Shown here one piece after another: positions 34,969 to 61,911 of a DNA stretch of 64,000 bases. The notes below the pieces were generated by a model. That model worked only from the letters and a program-made list of their open reading frames with translations, had not been told where the DNA came from and did no database searches. Origin of the DNA: Verrucomicrobiia bacterium (GTDB taxonomy: Bacteria; Verrucomicrobiota; Verrucomicrobiia; Limisphaerales; DSYF01); NCBI GenBank assembly GCA_035765895.1, contig DASTWL010000034.1:1-64000 (forward strand), read 5' to 3'. Positions within the stretch are counted from its first letter, which is position 1; each line of letters starts with the position of its first letter. Position numbers and translations under genes: made by a program.

Positions 34969-37900
34969 TCATTTCGCGTCTTCCACCTTGACCCATTGTT
35001 CGGCGCCGTTGCAGCGGATTTCGGGCACATACATCGCCTGGCCGAGCACCGGCAGCGCGTGGAATTCGCCCGGCACTTCGGCGCGCAGGTCGTAGCGAAT
35101 CTCCCAGACGCCCTCGGGCAGCTTGTCGATGAACAGCGCCACCTTGCGGTCGCGTAATTCCTGATAAACCCAGCGGGTCCGGCCGGTGTAATCGGAATCT
35201 TCAGGTAGTGGGGCAGGCATCTTGCCTGCCCGGTTGCGCGCAGGCTTGGCGGAAGTCCCACCGGACAGGCTGGAAGACTTTCCCACTACGGCATGCTTCC
35301 GCTCCACCGCGCCGGACTTGAGTTCCTTCGCGTAGAGCGATTCGCCGCTGCGGATTTCCACGGCCTCGAACCCGGCCGGCTTCAAATCCTCGAACATCAA
35401 ATATTCGTAGTTGTTCTTCCCCTCGATGGTGAGGACGGTTTCAACCCGTTCGCCGCTCTTCACCGTCTCGCCATTGAGGAGCGGCTCCTGGTCATAGACG
35501 TAGCCCTTGAGCAGCGTCGGACGGCCGACCAGCTTGAAGTATTGGCGCTTCACGAAAAGCTCGTTGCCCGCCGCCGTGATGGGCTCCTCCTGGCTGAAAA
35601 ACTTCGCTTCGACCGCGAAATACACCGACGCACCGCCCTGCTTGTTCCCCTCCTTGGAGGGGCCTGGGGTGGGTTTCCCCGGCTTCACCTGGATTCGAAC
35701 CTCGTTGCTGTCCTTGATGAGTTTCGCGTCCACCTCAAAGCGGCTCGGCGCATTGAAGACATCCGCGCCGCTGACCTTCTTCGACGCGACCTTCGTGCCG
35801 TTGACGGTCAGGACGTATTCCAAGTCCGGTGCGATTTCACCGCTGGCTTTGAGATAATCCGTCATCGCCAGCACGGCGATAGCGGTGTCGCGCGTGTTGC
35901 TCCACTGCGCGCCGCGACGGTTCTTGATGAGCCAGTTCGCCACCGGCTCGACGAGTTGGTTCGTCGGGTCAATCGCCAGCAGCGCCCGCAACGCAAAGGC
36001 CGTCGCCTCCACCCCGCCATCGGACCAGCGCCAATAGAGGCCGTCTTCGCCCCAGTGGGCGGTGCCCATGACCGTTGAGGGTTGAGAGTTGCTGGTTGAT
36101 GGTTTGCCGTCCACCAGCACGGACGTGTCCGGGCGGTCGTCGCGCTTCACGCCATTTTCCAGATTTTCGATAAGCGTCTTCGCCTCGGCGTCCTTGCCGA
36201 AGTAGTGAGCGGAAAGTGCCAGCAGCGAACGCGTGTAGGCGTTCAATTTCTCGCGATTCGTCCAGAGATTGTCGAAGGCCTTGGCTTCCATCTGCGACAA
36301 GCCGGATTCGTTTTGCGCGGCTTTGTGGGCGGCAAGCGCGTGCAGCATGAAGGCTTGCATGTCGTAATTTTCCTCCTGCTCGACGAGTGTCTTGTCGAGG
36401 AACTCGGCGCCGCGCCGCGCGACTTCGGGCTTCACTGCCACACCCGCCTGTTTCGCCAGCGACAATCCCCACACCACGTAGGCCGTCATCCAGGGATCGC
36501 TCTGGCCTTCCTTCCACCAGCCCCAGCCACCGTCGCCGTGCTGGAAATCGTAGAGCCGATCCAGCCCAGCCTTGGTCATGTCGTCGAGCTTGGCGAGGTC
36601 CTGTTTGCCCTTCGGATGCGTGGCGGCGGCGGAATTCGTTTCAATGCCACCGAACACGCGGCCCATCACGTCCTCGGGTTGCAGGCCCGCGTCTTTAAGC
36701 GTCTTGGCCACGATGGTGGCCGGCAGGAAACGGCTCATCGTCTGCTCGGTGCAGCCGTAGGGATAATCAATCAGGTAAGGCAACGCATCGAGCATCGTCA
36801 CCGCGAGGCTCGGCGTGACTTGCACGGTCAGTTGGGTGGAACCGGCCTTCCGCTCGGCAGGCAGATCCAGTTTCACGGTCACGTCGTTGCCCCGCACCTT
36901 GCCGGACTTGGCGAGGAACTTCTCGATGCCGTGTTCGTAAGCGACGTAGGTTTTCTCCATCGCATCGGAATACTTGCCGCCGCGACCGGTGACTTTGAGG
37001 TTCACTTCGCCGGGTTGTTTGACGGAGGCAATCCAATCCGCGCGGGCTTCGCCATTGGCAGGGAGTTTTAAATAAAAATCCGGCATTTTTCCTGACTTGG
37101 GCAAACTGGAGGCTTGCGCCGCACTGGAAACCATTTCCAATCCGCCATCCATTTCCAACGCCACCTTCGCCTCCAACGGCTCATCCGTATTATTGTTCAC
37201 GACCGCCGAGATCGTCACCGTGTCGCCCACGATGAAGAAGCGCGGCGCCTGAAGACGCACGATGAGCGGCTGCTTGGTGCGTGTGGTGGTGTCCGCGATG
37301 CCGAACTGGTTGCCGCTTGTGACCGCGCGGGCCGTGGCCTTCCAGCCCGTCAACGAATCGGGATATTTCACCTTCACCTTTGCCGTGCCATCCGCGCCCG
37401 TCATCACATCCGGCTGCCACAACACGGTCGAGCGAAAATCACTGCGCACCACGACCGCGGGTTCGGGCGCGGGCTCACCCGCCACCGCGCCACCCAGGCC
37501 TGTAACTGACTTCGCCATGGGCATCTCCTGCATGGCCATCGGTGCCGCGACGGCGGGTGAAACCATGCCCGGCATCTTGGCGGCCCGCAACGCGTAGAAT
37601 CCGCCGGCCGCTCCTCCACCCCCAACCCCGCCCGTGGGCTGATTAAGGGCCGCGTCCTTGTCGGCCAATTCCAGTTCATCCACAGCCGCCGGCAGCACGT
37701 TGGTGTCCTCGATCCCGCGCTGCTGCCGCTCGTAAGCCTCGACCTGGGACGCCTCGATGAGCTGGTCATCCACGCGCACGAGCTTCACGTAGCGGCGCTG
37801 GTTGAAGGTGCTGCCCGTCTGCGTCGCCTGCGGGCGTTTCGTGCCGAAGTAGAACTGGCGCGGATCGCCCGCGTAATCGCCCTGGATGTAGAACACGGAT

Positions 37901-40900
37901 TCGTCCACGAGACTGAAGGCGACCTCGGCGGGCACCGGTTTGCCCGCATCATCCCGGGTGGTGACGGTGAACGTGCCTTCCGCGCGCGGCTGGTATTGCG
38001 GCCGGTCGGGCTTCACATCCACGGTCAGGAAGTTCTTCGTCGGCGGCACCACGACTTGTTTGGTGTCGGTGTAAAGCTGGTTGTCGCTCACCATGGCGGC
38101 GTTCAGGAAAATATTCGGCACGTGCTGTTCGGTCACGTCGAGTTCGACGAGTTTGGTCGTGCCGTCGAGGTGAATGAGCTTCGCGCTCAGCAGGTCATCG
38201 GCTTCAACGGTGAACAGCACGTAACGGTCGTTGTCCGCGGTCTGAATCATCACCGGCGCCTGCTGGCCGACGCGAAACGTGTCCTTGTCCACGATGAGTT
38301 CCAAGCCACCGGTGCGGTAGCCCAGGTCGGTGGACTTGTCGGTGCAAACCCACACGGTGGTCCCGGCCTTGATGGGATTGGCCACCTGCAACTTCTGCTT
38401 CGCGACCGTGTCCTCGCTGGTCCACGCGACGCGGTAATAACCTTCGCGTTCAGGTTTGAAATCCAGTTGCGCCGTTCCATTCGTGTCGGTCTTGAGCGTT
38501 TTGGTCAGAATGTCGTCGTGCTGGTAGCCGCGGAATTTGAGCCGCCAGCCGGGTTCGTTGGGCCGGGTTGGGGGCGGCGGCCAGATGGAGGTTTTGGCGC
38601 GCCGTTGTTTGAGTTCATCGCCTTTGACTTCGCGACCGTCCGGCGCGATCCAGATTTCCCACCAGTAATCGCGCGTCACCTTCACGGTGCCTTCGCAGAC
38701 GACGGGTTGCTGGTTCGCATCGGCCGCCTTGAACTCAACGCTCACCTTGTCCTGCGGCTGGTAGAGGCGATGGTCCGTGTCCGCGTGCACGAAGTAACGC
38801 TGCCGCGTGACGCGCACCGTGCCCGTGCCGGTGATTTCCCGCCGGCTGGCATCGGTGACGCGTGCTTCGATGCGATACTCGTAATCCTGATTTGCCCCGC
38901 GCGGCGTCTCGAAGGTCAACGTCGCCTTGCCCCCGGCATCGGTCTTGAGCGTCTCGCGTTTCACGACCTGCCCGCCGCCCCACCAGCGACCGCGGTAGCC
39001 GCCCGCCTGGTCCATGTCCTGGTAAAACCACGGGAACTCGCGCGGCTGCGGCCAGGACTGCCAGTAAGGATTCTGGTTCACGACCACTTCGACGCTGGCG
39101 TTGGCGACCGGGCCGCCGAAGTAGTAGTCGGCCTGGATGGTGACCTCGACGACGTCACCAAGCTTGAACACCTTCTTCCGCCCCGCTTCCTCCGGCGTGC
39201 TGACGGCGACTTTGAACTCAGGCAGCTTGTATTCCTCGAGCCGGAACAACGTCGCGCTGCCGATGCTGTGCTGGCGGCCGTCATCCCAAAACTGCACATG
39301 GTATTCGCCGAGCGGCATCTGCTCCGTCAGTTCGAGCGCGCCCCACGCGCTGCCGAAGGAGTTCAACGTGGCCTTGCCCTCCTTGACCTTCGTGCCCCGC
39401 GGATCGTTGATTTGATACTCGATCGTCTGATTGGCGGGCGTGGAATAAACGCCATCCGCGTATCGCCGCGCAATGAATTTCCAGTTCACCGTCTCCTTGG
39501 GCCGATAGGCGGGCCGGTCGGTGAAGGCGTAGATGCGCCAAACCTGCCGATCTGGTATCGGCAGCCCGGTGGCCGGGTCAATGGTGCTCCAGTTGAATCT
39601 GCGATTTCCGTAACTGTTGCCGATGCTGAACGCCTGCCGGTCCTTGAGCATCGCGCTGGCGAACAGCTCCACGCCCGTATTATCGCGCTGCTCCAGATCG
39701 AACACGGCCAACCCATCGGCATCTGTCTCCTTGGACTGTTCGCGCACTCGCCACTCGCCATTCCAGTTCCAACGTTCTCGCAGCACCACCCTGGCATGGG
39801 CCAGCGGCGCGCCGCTGTGGGCGTCGCAAAAATAAACCAGCGCCTGCTTGCCGGAACTCTTGAGCACGAGCGCCGCGTCCGTGACGAGAATCAACTGGCG
39901 CGACGTTTGGCCACCGGCCTTGCCTTCGAGGACGTAAGCGCCGGGCGGGAGTTTTTCGTCGAGCCGGGCGGTGGCATTGCCGGGCCGGTAGTCGCCTTTG
40001 TTTTCAACGTCGCGCGTCCAGCTTTTCAACTTCTCACGACCCGCGAGGGGGATTTCATCCACCCAATCGCCCTGGTTTTCACCGAACTTCACATCGCGAT
40101 TCAATTCCACCGGATACAGTGCCAGCTCGATTTGCTTCACGTTGCGCCAGTTGAGCGAGTATTGGATTTCCGAGCCGGGCAGGAAGAAGTCGGACACCAT
40201 CACGTTCAACTGCGGGCCGGTGATGTCCTTGATGGCCTGCTGGGCCTGTTCCCAGTAACGCGTCTCGCCCTTTTTGAATTCGCCCACCAGCCGCCGGTAA
40301 AGTTCCAGCGCGCGGACGTAATCCGGTTCGGTGTGCCAGGTGCCGTCCTTGAGGACGACCACGCGACCCTCGCCGGCAAGCCATTGGGCGTAGTTGAACA
40401 GCGCGTCGTCATACCAGTCCGTTTTCGTGCCCGACTTGAGCGCGCCCTCGAATTCGTCCTGCACGCGCTGACGCTGTTCGGCGTCATTCCCGCCCCGGCT
40501 GCGCAGCGCCATCGCGAGGAGGTAATGCGCGTGGGCCCGGTCCGCTTCCGACGACGCAATCTTCAACGCATTCTCGAGAATGGCCGGATCAATCTGGTTG
40601 CCGAAGTAGCCGTAGGAGTAATACGGCTCAGCCTGCGGCGGCTGCGCCATGCGCCAGACGATGGCGAGGTAACGTTCGCGGGCCAGCTCGACGTCGCGCG
40701 CGCCGGCCCACCAGTCCAGCGCCCGCTGGTAATACGGCCAGGCCTGCCCCCAGTTGCGCTGGTTGCGCCGCGTCCACCAGAAATCGCCGAGCGACTCCTG
40801 CACCTCGGCCCAGACGCGGTCCTGGTCCTCCGGGCGCGCCACGTCGCGCACCAGCTTCTCCAGTTCGGTGCGCGCCTGTTCGAGCGGCGTGTTGTCGGCG

Positions 40901-41160
40901 GATTGCGTGGCCGCGGCGGCGCGCCACTGGGTGTCGTAGCAGCGGAAAGCCACCCAGCGTGCGTCGCTGGCGGCGAGGTTCGACATCAGCAGGGCGCGCG
41001 CATACAACTCGTGCGCCTTGCTGAAGGATTTTTCCGCGTAAAACTTTTCGGCCTCAGCCTTGAGCGAGGCGAAATCAGCGGGTGGTTCCGCGGCCAGCGC
41101 GGTCAGGGCGAGGAGACAACCCAGCGAGAGCAGGAAGCGCATAATTGGAGTGTGGCTCAT
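34969..41160 (-). CDS. Alpha-2-macroglobulin-like protein with CTEQ thioester motif
   Basis: The 2063-residue protein begins with a signal peptide (MRFLLSLGCLLALTALA, Met7) and an N-terminal helical, TPR-like region to about residue 330. MG domains follow, with the MG2-type phrase IYAFTDRPAYRPKETVNWKF near 545, a Gly-rich insert near 1190, and the A2M domain (STVLWQPDVMTGADGTAKVK, about 1240). The thioester site is YPYGCTEQTMSRF near 1467, then an alpha/alpha thioester-domain barrel. Bacterial A2Ms trap proteases in the periplasm. The usual partner pbpC is absent. At least four short repeats interrupt the frame in loops (about residues 1345, 1690, 1830, 1970). The start overlaps the upstream stop as ATGA. 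Confidence 0.93.
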   Translation of the reverse strand: MSHTPIMRFLLSLGCLLALTALAAEPPADFASLKAEAEKFYAEKSFSKAHELYARALLMSNLAASDARWVAFRCYDTQWRAAAATQSADNTPLEQARTELEKLVRDVARPEDQDRVWAEVQESLGDFWWTRRNQRNWGQAWPYYQRALDWWAGARDVELARERYLAIVWRMAQPPQAEPYYSYGYFGNQIDPAILENALKIASSEADRAHAHYLLAMALRSRGGNDAEQRQRVQDEFEGALKSGTKTDWYDDALFNYAQWLAGEGRVVVLKDGTWHTEPDYVRALELYRRLVGEFKKGETRYWEQAQQAIKDITGPQLNVMVSDFFLPGSEIQYSLNWRNVKQIELALYPVELNRDVKFGENQGDWVDEIPLAGREKLKSWTRDVENKGDYRPGNATARLDEKLPPGAYVLEGKAGGQTSRQLILVTDAALVLKSSGKQALVYFCDAHSGAPLAHARVVLRERWNWNGEWRVREQSKETDADGLAVFDLEQRDNTGVELFASAMLKDRQAFSIGNSYGNRRFNWSTIDPATGLPIPDRQVWRIYAFTDRPAYRPKETVNWKFIARRYADGVYSTPANQTIEYQINDPRGTKVKEGKATLNSFGSAWGALELTEQMPLGEYHVQFWDDGRQHSIGSATLFRLEEYKLPEFKVAVSTPEEAGRKKVFKLGDVVEVTIQADYYFGGPVANASVEVVVNQNPYWQSWPQPREFPWFYQDMDQAGGYRGRWWGGGQVVKRETLKTDAGGKATLTFETPRGANQDYEYRIEARVTDASRREITGTGTVRVTRQRYFVHADTDHRLYQPQDKVSVEFKAADANQQPVVCEGTVKVTRDYWWEIWIAPDGREVKGDELKQRRAKTSIWPPPPTRPNEPGWRLKFRGYQHDDILTKTLKTDTNGTAQLDFKPEREGYYRVAWTSEDTVAKQKLQVANPIKAGTTVWVCTDKSTDLGYRTGGLELIVDKDTFRVGQQAPVMIQTADNDRYVLFTVEADDLLSAKLIHLDGTTKLVELDVTEQHVPNIFLNAAMVSDNQLYTDTKQVVVPPTKNFLTVDVKPDRPQYQPRAEGTFTVTTRDDAGKPVPAEVAFSLVDESVFYIQGDYAGDPRQFYFGTKRPQATQTGSTFNQRRYVKLVRVDDQLIEASQVEAYERQQRGIEDTNVLPAAVDELELADKDAALNQPTGGVGGGGAAGGFYALRAAKMPGMVSPAVAAPMAMQEMPMAKSVTGLGGAVAGEPAPEPAVVVRSDFRSTVLWQPDVMTGADGTAKVKVKYPDSLTGWKATARAVTSGNQFGIADTTTRTKQPLIVRLQAPRFFIVGDTVTISAVVNNNTDEPLEAKVALEMDGGLEMVSSAAQASSLPKSGKMPDFYLKLPANGEARADWIASVKQPGEVNLKVTGRGGKYSDAMEKTYVAYEHGIEKFLAKSGKVRGNDVTVKLDLPAERKAGSTQLTVQVTPSLAVTMLDALPYLIDYPYGCTEQTMSRFLPATIVAKTLKDAGLQPEDVMGRVFGGIETNSAAATHPKGKQDLAKLDDMTKAGLDRLYDFQHGDGGWGWWKEGQSDPWMTAYVVWGLSLAKQAGVAVKPEVARRGAEFLDKTLVEQEENYDMQAFMLHALAAHKAAQNESGLSQMEAKAFDNLWTNREKLNAYTRSLLALSAHYFGKDAEAKTLIENLENGVKRDDRPDTSVLVDGKPSTSNSQPSTVMGTAHWGEDGLYWRWSDGGVEATAFALRALLAIDPTNQLVEPVANWLIKNRRGAQWSNTRDTAIAVLAMTDYLKASGEIAPDLEYVLTVNGTKVASKKVSGADVFNAPSRFEVDAKLIKDSNEVRIQVKPGKPTPGPSKEGNKQGGASVYFAVEAKFFSQEEPITAAGNELFVKRQYFKLVGRPTLLKGYVYDQEPLLNGETVKSGERVETVLTIEGKNNYEYLMFEDLKPAGFEAVEIRSGESLYAKELKSGAVERKHAVVGKSSSLSGGTSAKPARNRAGKMPAPLPEDSDYTGRTRWVYQELRDRKVALFIDKLPEGVWEIRYDLRAEVPGEFHALPVLGQAMYVPEIRCNGAEQWVKVEDAK
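35205..35289. repeat. Palindromic element inside the macroglobulin gene, with terminal inverted repeats
   Basis: This 85-bp block is bounded by inverted repeats GTAGTGGG (35205-35212) and CCCACTAC (35282-35289). Inside is a perfect 9-bp hairpin, GGGCAGGCA/TGCCTGCCC with loop TCT (35211-35231), and a second weaker stem (GGAAGTC/GACTTTCC). It is read through in the minus frame and adds a Ser/Pro/Ala/Lys-rich loop containing RAGKMPAPLPEDS between two conserved strands of the last domain. Confidence 0.7.
35641..35690. repeat. Short palindromic insertion in the macroglobulin gene (PGPSKEG type)
   Basis: A 16-base palindrome CCCCTCCTTGGAGGGG (35647-35662) sits in a C/G-homopolymer-rich tract and encodes GKPTPGPSKEGNKQG on the minus strand, interrupting a beta segment of the protein. 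Sequences of this kind are common as dispersed repeats in diverse bacteria; only one copy lies in this window. Confidence 0.5.
36068..36110. repeat. Tandem CAAC-type insertion in the macroglobulin gene
   Basis: The minus strand reads ATCAACC-AGCAACTCTCAACC-CTCAAC, a run of near-identical 6-8 base units, encoding PSTSNSQPSTV. It separates otherwise conserved parts of the thioester-domain helical barrel. It looks like a short repeat tolerated in a loop. Confidence 0.45.
37082..37135. repeat. Second GKMP-type element in the macroglobulin gene
   Basis: On the minus strand this tract contains GCAAGC-CTCCA-GTTTGC, an imperfect palindrome, then CAGGAAAAATGCC, and encodes QASSLPKSGKMPDF. It shares the peptide pattern SSL...GKMP and part of its DNA with the element at 35205-35289 in the same reading frame, so the two appear related. 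Confidence 0.5.
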
Positions 41161-41651
41161 TGGTTCACGGCGGGGGCAACGGGTGATGGTGCGGGGGCGG
41201 GCAGCGTGACGCAAATTTCTCCCATGACGACTGTTGGTTTGATCATGCCCAGTTTTAGCTTCACCTCATAAATCCAGCCATCGATTTTTTGCCGGAACGG
41301 ACTGACCGGTCCGCCTTCACGCCGCCCCACACCGACGGCCGCCAAGGTGCCCAACAGCAACACGGTCGTCAGACCAGCCGCCAAGCTCCCCGCCCGCCGG
41401 CGCCACCGCCCCACCGGACAATCCCGGGTCAAAATGCGCCCGTCGGCCCGCCGGTGCAGGCGCGCGCAAAGCGAACCTTCCGGGCGGCGAATGAGCGCTC
41501 CGGCCTCCGCGCCGGTCAGCGCCGAAAGGTCATAGACATATTTGCGGCATTGGTCGCAAAACCGCACGCGGTCATCACCATGCATGGTTTCCCAGCGGGC
41601 CCGGCAAGGCGACGCCACCCGCACCTGATCGAGGAAAGGCTTCGTTTCCAT
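41157..41651 (-). CDS. Small membrane protein with N-terminal Cys-rich motif, coupled to the macroglobulin gene
   Basis: The 164-residue protein starts with a conserved-looking cytoplasmic motif (VRVASPCRARWETMHGDDRV, then RFCDQCRKYVYDLS), which I know as a recurring N-terminus of small proteins in Acidobacteria and Verrucomicrobia. A further Cys pair lies in SLCARL and TRDCPVG. One membrane helix follows near residues 88-109 (LAAGLTTVLLLGTLAAVGVG). The C-terminal 50 residues are presumably periplasmic. Its stop overlaps the start of the macroglobulin-like gene (ATGA), so the two are translated together; it may anchor or regulate that protein. The four N-terminal cysteines may bind a metal. 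Confidence 0.78.
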   Translation of the reverse strand: METKPFLDQVRVASPCRARWETMHGDDRVRFCDQCRKYVYDLSALTGAEAGALIRRPEGSLCARLHRRADGRILTRDCPVGRWRRRAGSLAAGLTTVLLLGTLAAVGVGRREGGPVSPFRQKIDGWIYEVKLKLGMIKPTVVMGEICVTLPAPAPSPVAPAVNQ

Positions 41652-61844: not shown

Positions 61845-61911
61845 AAAAATCCCCTCACCCGCCCTCGGGCACCCTCTCCCCATCGGATGGGGAGAGGGAC
61901 GGGGTGAGGGG
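61845..61911 (-). terminator. Repeat-derived terminator downstream of cysK
   Basis: A long nested palindrome: outer arms CCCCTCACCC (61851-61860) and GGGTGAGGGG (61902-61911), inner perfect 13-bp arms CCCTCTCCCCATC/GATGGGGAGAGGG (61872-61898). On the minus strand ATTTTTG follows. It starts 8 bases past the cysK stop. The sequence has the look of a dispersed intergenic repeat that is used here as a terminator. Confidence 0.8.

Follow-up and report, generated by a model that had tools for sequence, protein, structure and literature searches.

REPs are extragenic by name, and how RAYTs endure as genes that are single-copy and apparently immobile has yet to be explained. Inteins with homing endonucleases place an enzyme frame inside essential genes, occupy recurrent sites, and carry enzymes that cluster by site. 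A REPIN consists of two inverted REPs and a spacer, forms one hairpin, moves as a unit, and is linked to RAYTs (Bertels and Rainey 2011, PMC3116915). In the REPtron, also named TnpA_REP, an HUH-Y1 transposase gene lies between a GTAG REP and an inverted REP (PMC6006769; PMC8266576). RAYTs were found to cut single-stranded REPs at CT, with GTAG proposed as the guide (PMC8266576, 2021). A 2018 survey of the enzyme family set aside proteins that were longer than expected, regarding them as fusions or errors of annotation (PMC6006769). In-gene GTAG REPs, many of them in repair genes, have been reported for the verrucomicrobium Opitutus terrae and others, and more than half were dimers or groups encoding 20-30 residues (Di Nocera et al. 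2013, PMC3733652). The Rickettsia elements carry a CGTC tag and are reported to have no transposase (PMC3733652). An earlier note on the DNA analyzed here knew of no description for Verrucomicrobia; the Opitutus terrae elements, published in 2013, supply one.

We analyzed a window of 64,000 nucleotides from a Verrucomicrobiia bacterium of the order Limisphaerales, in which a short palindromic block lies inside a macroglobulin gene. The 85-bp block, the 8-bp inverted ends and the 9-bp perfect hairpin described in the earlier note were recovered exactly at 35205-35289. The features of the locus are listed below.

34969..41214, - strand: host gene, bacterial alpha-2-macroglobulin-like protein, ORF of 2081 aa (translation; Pfam A2M, bMG10, TED, MG2, A2M_BRD)
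35020..35553, - strand: bMG10 domain, which holds the insert in a hypervariable linker (Pfam PF17973, residues 1888-2065; orthologue alignments)
35205..35289, no strand assigned: whole element, 85 bp, read as a head-to-head GTAG-tagged REP pair, or REPIN (sequence; genome matches)
35205..35234, + strand: REP unit 1, GTAGTGGGGCAGGC-ATCTT-GCCTGCCCGGT (family alignment; hairpin 35211-35231)
35235..35259, no strand assigned: spacer between the REP units, 25 bp (sequence)
35260..35289, - strand: REP unit 2, inverted, GTAGTGGGAAAGTC-TTCCA-GCCTGTCCGGT (family alignment)

The terminal inverted repeats of the element (GTAGTGGG / CCCACTAC) are perfect over 8 bp, and both ends read GTAG/CTAC with no CGTC tag. 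The inner hairpin at 35211-35231, GGGCAGGCA-TCT-TGCCTGCCC, possesses a 9-bp perfect stem and a 3-nt loop, and only 0.05 occurrences of its core (GGCAGGCATCTTGCCTGCC) are expected in the shuffled window. Folding of the 85-bp block compared to shuffles gave a z of -2.6 as DNA and -3.7 as RNA. A simulation that scored inverted repeats flanking hairpins proved too permissive, as it took the nested arms of one hairpin for ends. From the family alignment, it was noted that the stem of unit 1 differs from the family on both sides (GGAC/GTCC to GGGC/GCCC), and that the stem of unit 2 has decayed with the tag and tail retained. Because two GTAG-tagged REP units stand head to head with a 25-bp spacer, the block was read as a REPIN. 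Like the REPINs described before, it combines an inverted REP pair and a spacer with one hairpin, and its family has a RAYT link in relatives. The Pseudomonas REPINs were analyzed in extragenic space, whereas the window family has many in-gene, in-frame copies.

Copies of this family were counted by pattern in the genome that contains the window (4.64 Mb in 96 contigs) and read from extracted stretches. The element search returned 22 matches, among them two near-full-length copies besides the window's own, at 75% and 73% identity. The unit pattern, allowing up to three mismatches, gave 49 matches, a count that includes palindromes on both strands, compared to 0 for the reversed control. About 16 further loci share the tag, stem and tail of the family, and single units also occur alone. 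The consensus of the aligned units is GTAGTGGGACAGGC-N-TCY-N-GCCTGTCCGGT, with a GTAG tag, an 8-bp stem, a TCY loop and a GGT tail. The first and last loop bases were complementary (G-C, A-T, T-A or G.T) in 41 of 41 genome-loop combinations although the order-wide pattern search left the five loop bases unspecified, which argues that the pairing is maintained.

Counting the window copy, at least eight members of the family in this genome were found in frame in conserved genes, and others were intergenic. The hosts are a Ser/Thr kinase, 4-alpha-glucanotransferase (MalQ), IleRS, the sulphite-reductase-type flavoprotein CysJ, MutS, the class-III aminotransferase BioA, RtcB and the macroglobulin; Pfam backs the macroglobulin and four of the seven others, and the remaining names come from sequence recognition. 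In relatives, the REP insert was absent from orthologues of the kinase, MalQ (same genus), IleRS and RtcB. In G005, a genome of another family, the flavoprotein carries the insert at the same position. Dispersed copies, for which the earlier note had suggested a search, are therefore present. A separate intergenic palindrome was noted in the window at 61851-61911 (CCCTCACCC...CCTCTCCCC/GGGGAGAGG...GGGTGAGGG), and peptides of its type (TLSPSDGERDGVRG) lie in frame in the kinase on contig C9 of the same genome.

The Opitutus terrae REPs and the window element share their phylum, the GTAG tag, a stem-loop, head-to-head dimers, in-frame positions in housekeeping or repair genes, and a coding length of 20-30 residues. 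The Opitutus terrae elements come from another order, the likeness is one of description rather than of consensus sequence, and the passages on them mention no RAYT inside genes.

The element is read on the - strand of ORF 34969-41214 as VVGKSSSLSGGTSAKPARNRAGKMPAPLP, and the ORF runs through it without a stop, in agreement with the in-frame reading made before. The length of 85 is not a multiple of three, and the frame is kept only together with adjoining bases, whose limits cannot be set. Alignments with macroglobulin orthologues from 16 other genomes showed that the linker at the insert site is hypervariable, consisting of a few residues, a LysM-like domain or, in the sister species, unrelated sequence; the REP pair was absent from all of these orthologues. 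In the orthologues L096, L097 and L103, an apparent LysM domain occupies the linker where the window gene carries the REP pair. The comparison with orthologues raised in the earlier note thus returned neither the element nor a conserved loop. Its further claim of a loop added to a conserved domain holds insofar as the insert lies inside bMG10, but the host loop is a hypervariable linker outside the conserved fold; since it is hypervariable in all orthologues, the insert is not an addition to the conserved part of bMG10. The host loop is too variable for an exact empty site of the window copy to be found at the DNA level among the macroglobulin orthologues. In a structure model of the bMG10 region (mean pLDDT 51), the insert was predicted to lie in the least certain coil between strands. 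Judging from the alignments, the element is missing elsewhere, but the linker was already tolerant beforehand.

Several other variable places were noted along the macroglobulin gene. A second palindromic insert at 35632-35673 (PTPGPSKEGNKQGG; CCCCTCCTTGGAGGGGCCTGGGGTGGG) is absent from orthologues, and sequence similar to it was found in the same genome near the Y1 transposase L029. A possible decayed single REP lies at 37078-37128 (SSAAQASSLPKSGKMPD); in the matching loop, orthologues L036 and L038 have in common a longer REP-like insert whose protein sequence has diverged. At 36064-36099, a short NSQPSTV-type repeat occupies a variable loop, with a similar one in the sister species.

By pattern search, the unit was found with at most one mismatch in 16 of 245 genomes of the order, which named orthologue records indicate to be Limisphaerales (Verrucomicrobia subdivision 3), and none was found at this threshold in the sister species G001. 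G005 possesses 80 exact or near-exact unit matches and 37 pairable head-to-head dimers. At least 11 of these dimers are in frame in conserved genes, including ValRS, PurL, UvrB, LigA and PurH (named by sequence recognition). In-gene dimer lengths, from 75 to 130, were spread over all three modulo-3 classes, and no target-duplication rule followed from dimer length modulo 3. Given the patchy spread over 16 of 245 genomes, the family may have moved in the window genome either recently or only long ago.

The transposases of these genomes were then compared. The window's own genome contains five Y1-transposase matches (L028-L032), all of other RAYT clades, and no window-family REP was found in the flanks examined around them. 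L028 and L029 (contigs C39 and C52) are IS200-like Y1 transposases flanked by hairpin families of their own, which bear the tags ATAG and TTAG. In G005 and G093, a RAYT directly adjoins a window-family dimer, and both RAYTs lie inside long reading frames. The REP-associated transposase anticipated in the earlier note is thus encountered in relatives, flanked by REPs and in frame in genes, but the own genome holds only other RAYT clades.

These observations bear on how the block is best explained. Short palindromes in frame in many genes are also the behavior of the Rickettsia palindromic elements (PMC3733652), and the parallel drawn in the earlier note stands at this level; membership in that group (RPE, or CGTC-tagged repeats) is very improbable, as the tag is GTAG instead of CGTC, and window-type REPs adjoin RAYT genes in relatives whereas the CGTC repeats were reported without a transposase. 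A MITE of the classical kind, mobilized by a DDE transposase and bearing terminal inverted repeats and a target-site duplication, could likewise measure 85 bp with 8-bp inverted ends and no coding capacity as an element. However, each half of the block is a complete GTAG-tagged REP hairpin, single units occur alone, and the only enzymes found with these units in relatives are RAYTs, so that this origin also appears highly unlikely.

In orthologues the loop itself can be as short as a few residues or as long as an entire LysM domain, and linkers rich in GC fold readily, so a chance hairpin in a fast-evolving, GC-rich linker might be imagined; we give it next to no weight, since about 16 other loci in the own genome share the tag, stem and tail compared to 0 control matches, and the family also occurs in 15 further genomes of the order. 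Rather less improbable, though still unlikely, is a regulatory RNA hairpin or a protein loop under selection, kept for message stability or for a change to the macroglobulin. The strong RNA fold (z -3.7), the REP peptides in many housekeeping proteins, and one diverged REP-like insert that seems common to two families at the same place in the macroglobulin gene are compatible with such selection; the decay of one REP arm, the unrelated sequence that takes up the linker in orthologues, and the residence of the REP family in unrelated genes speak against it. The window block is very probably a REPIN that entered the macroglobulin gene as a single non-autonomous unit and was kept in a tolerant loop. 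Family membership, dispersed copies, the conserved hairpin, in-frame residence and absence from orthologues are the observations on which this REPIN reading draws.

Because the RAYTs adjoining window-family dimers lay within long frames, an order-wide and then a phylum-wide search was made for gene-embedded RAYTs. We found a complete RAYT, with the HUH motif and the tyrosine, in frame inside DnaE in G084 and G148, where the uninterrupted ORFs measure 1564 and 1531 aa. Within a single ORF, Pfam finds Y1_Tnp enclosed by the DNA_pol3_alpha, finger and HHH domains.

G084:C148, G148:C37 and G005:C74 (L183, L184, L185): RAYT-in-gene loci, HUH and Tyr motifs intact

About 20 more gene-embedded loci were found within L194-L223 and L321-L363. 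A DinG-like helicase holds a RAYT at one site in seven genomes, LeuRS at one site in three, and a nucleotidyltransferase-like protein in four; other hosts include PriA, an SNF2 helicase, ClpB, ValRS, and CarB-like, XseA-like and MetH-like proteins as well as several methylases. IspG holds a RAYT in the single-contig, 5.68-Mb genome G563, which makes an assembly artefact unlikely. DnaE, the DinG-like helicase, PriA, ValRS and IspG have Pfam support, and the other host names come from recognized flanking sequence. A RAYT frame running into AlaRS (L191) was left out of the count, with the N-terminal part of the host unchecked.

Hairpins sharing a stem motif were found on both sides of the enzyme in 25 of the 32 gene-embedded RAYTs, and hairpin pairs of this kind surround 13 of 24 stand-alone RAYTs. 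In the DnaE of G148, the arrangement is GTAGTGGCACGGGC...RAYT...GCCCGTGCCACTAC; its ends are GTAGTGG/CCACTAC, as in the window element, with the transposase replacing the spacer. The same DnaE site is empty in G228, G062 and G053, and some genomes carry REP pairs only, of which the pair in G227 encodes a peptide that assigns it to the window's family. At a second DnaE loop, before KVVIDRL (L183, L184, L190), a RAYT was noted in G093; G084 and G148 have a palindromic repeat of another kind there.

Such a gene-resident RAYT resembles a REPtron in that an HUH-Y1 transposase is flanked by a GTAG REP and an inverted REP. Known REPtrons have been treated as separate genes, whereas the transposase frame in these relatives is fused in frame with host proteins. 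The RAYT-bearing form resembles inteins in its enzyme frame within essential genes, recurrent sites and clustering by site; unlike inteins, it shows no splicing domain, and the inserted part is apparently retained in the protein. Rickettsia elements share with the window element their in-frame position in functional genes, but have the CGTC tag and no transposase. No paper on RAYTs in frame inside housekeeping genes was found in the literature searched, chiefly open-access journal papers. The gene-resident RAYT appears to be a new form of REPtron; the window element itself is of a known type, a REPIN in a gene.

We further characterized how the gene-resident RAYTs evolved. In a RAYT tree whose bootstrap values are not fully settled, those inside DnaE formed one clade (99/93), five of the seven from the DinG-like helicase formed another (99/97), and stand-alone RAYTs fell mostly in a separate group. 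G084 possesses one RAYT of the DnaE type and one of the DinG-like-helicase type. Between G084 and G148, synonymous divergence was 2.27 in the RAYT compared to 0.40-0.48 in the surrounding dnaE, and these RAYTs were therefore not simply co-inherited with the gene; their arrivals in DnaE seem to have been independent. The gene-resident RAYTs are under purifying selection, with dN/dS of 0.11 (G084/G148, DnaE) and 0.15 (G101/G139, DinG-like), similar to their hosts. At the helicase site, G003 has a RAYT and G002, of the same genus, has none. These results favor repeated arrivals at the same sites, with selection acting on the enzyme. The recurrence need not reflect targeting: it may be that only insertions in tolerant loops survive, and a resident REP may serve as the landing site.

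A mechanism may be proposed for the window copy. A RAYT, as an HUH tyrosine transposase, would have recognized the GTAG hairpins in single-stranded form and placed a copy of the unit in the macroglobulin gene, and selection would have retained only insertions that were in frame, stop-free and in a tolerant surface loop. The insert would now encode a disordered linker of about 29 residues that itself serves no function. Its autonomous partner was most likely the RAYT element of relatives, which has GTAGTGG...CCACTAC ends and lies in frame inside housekeeping genes. With one arm decayed, the window copy is probably old, and its genome no longer holds a RAYT of the gene-resident clade. We infer the mobility, the translation of the element and of the fusions, and the activity of the RAYT enzymes from sequence.

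The 85-bp block would most simply be the RAYT-less form of a gene-resident REPtron, since its ends match those of the G148 DnaE unit and the DnaE site is also found empty or with a REP pair only. Such a form could have arisen either by insertion or by RAYT loss between flanking REPs. More broadly, we consider the chances slightly better than even that Verrucomicrobia host an autonomous and coding-compatible REPtron, in which a RAYT and GTAG REPs lie in frame in essential genes and are translated without splicing, with site-specific lineages at fixed sites, lateral spread and an intein-like niche, and that the window element is its RAYT-less derivative.

Gene-resident RAYTs predict fusion proteins of predictable size and cleavage of single-stranded DNA by a polymerase-fused enzyme. 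On this reading, matches to Y1 transposases inside DnaE, PriA or tRNA synthetases of such genomes would not have to be mistakes of annotation. If the reading is true, the residence of a RAYT and its REPs in frame in indispensable genes, such as that of the replicative polymerase, would offer a simple reason for their persistence, and in-gene residence of RAYTs and REPs would be a source of new protein loops.
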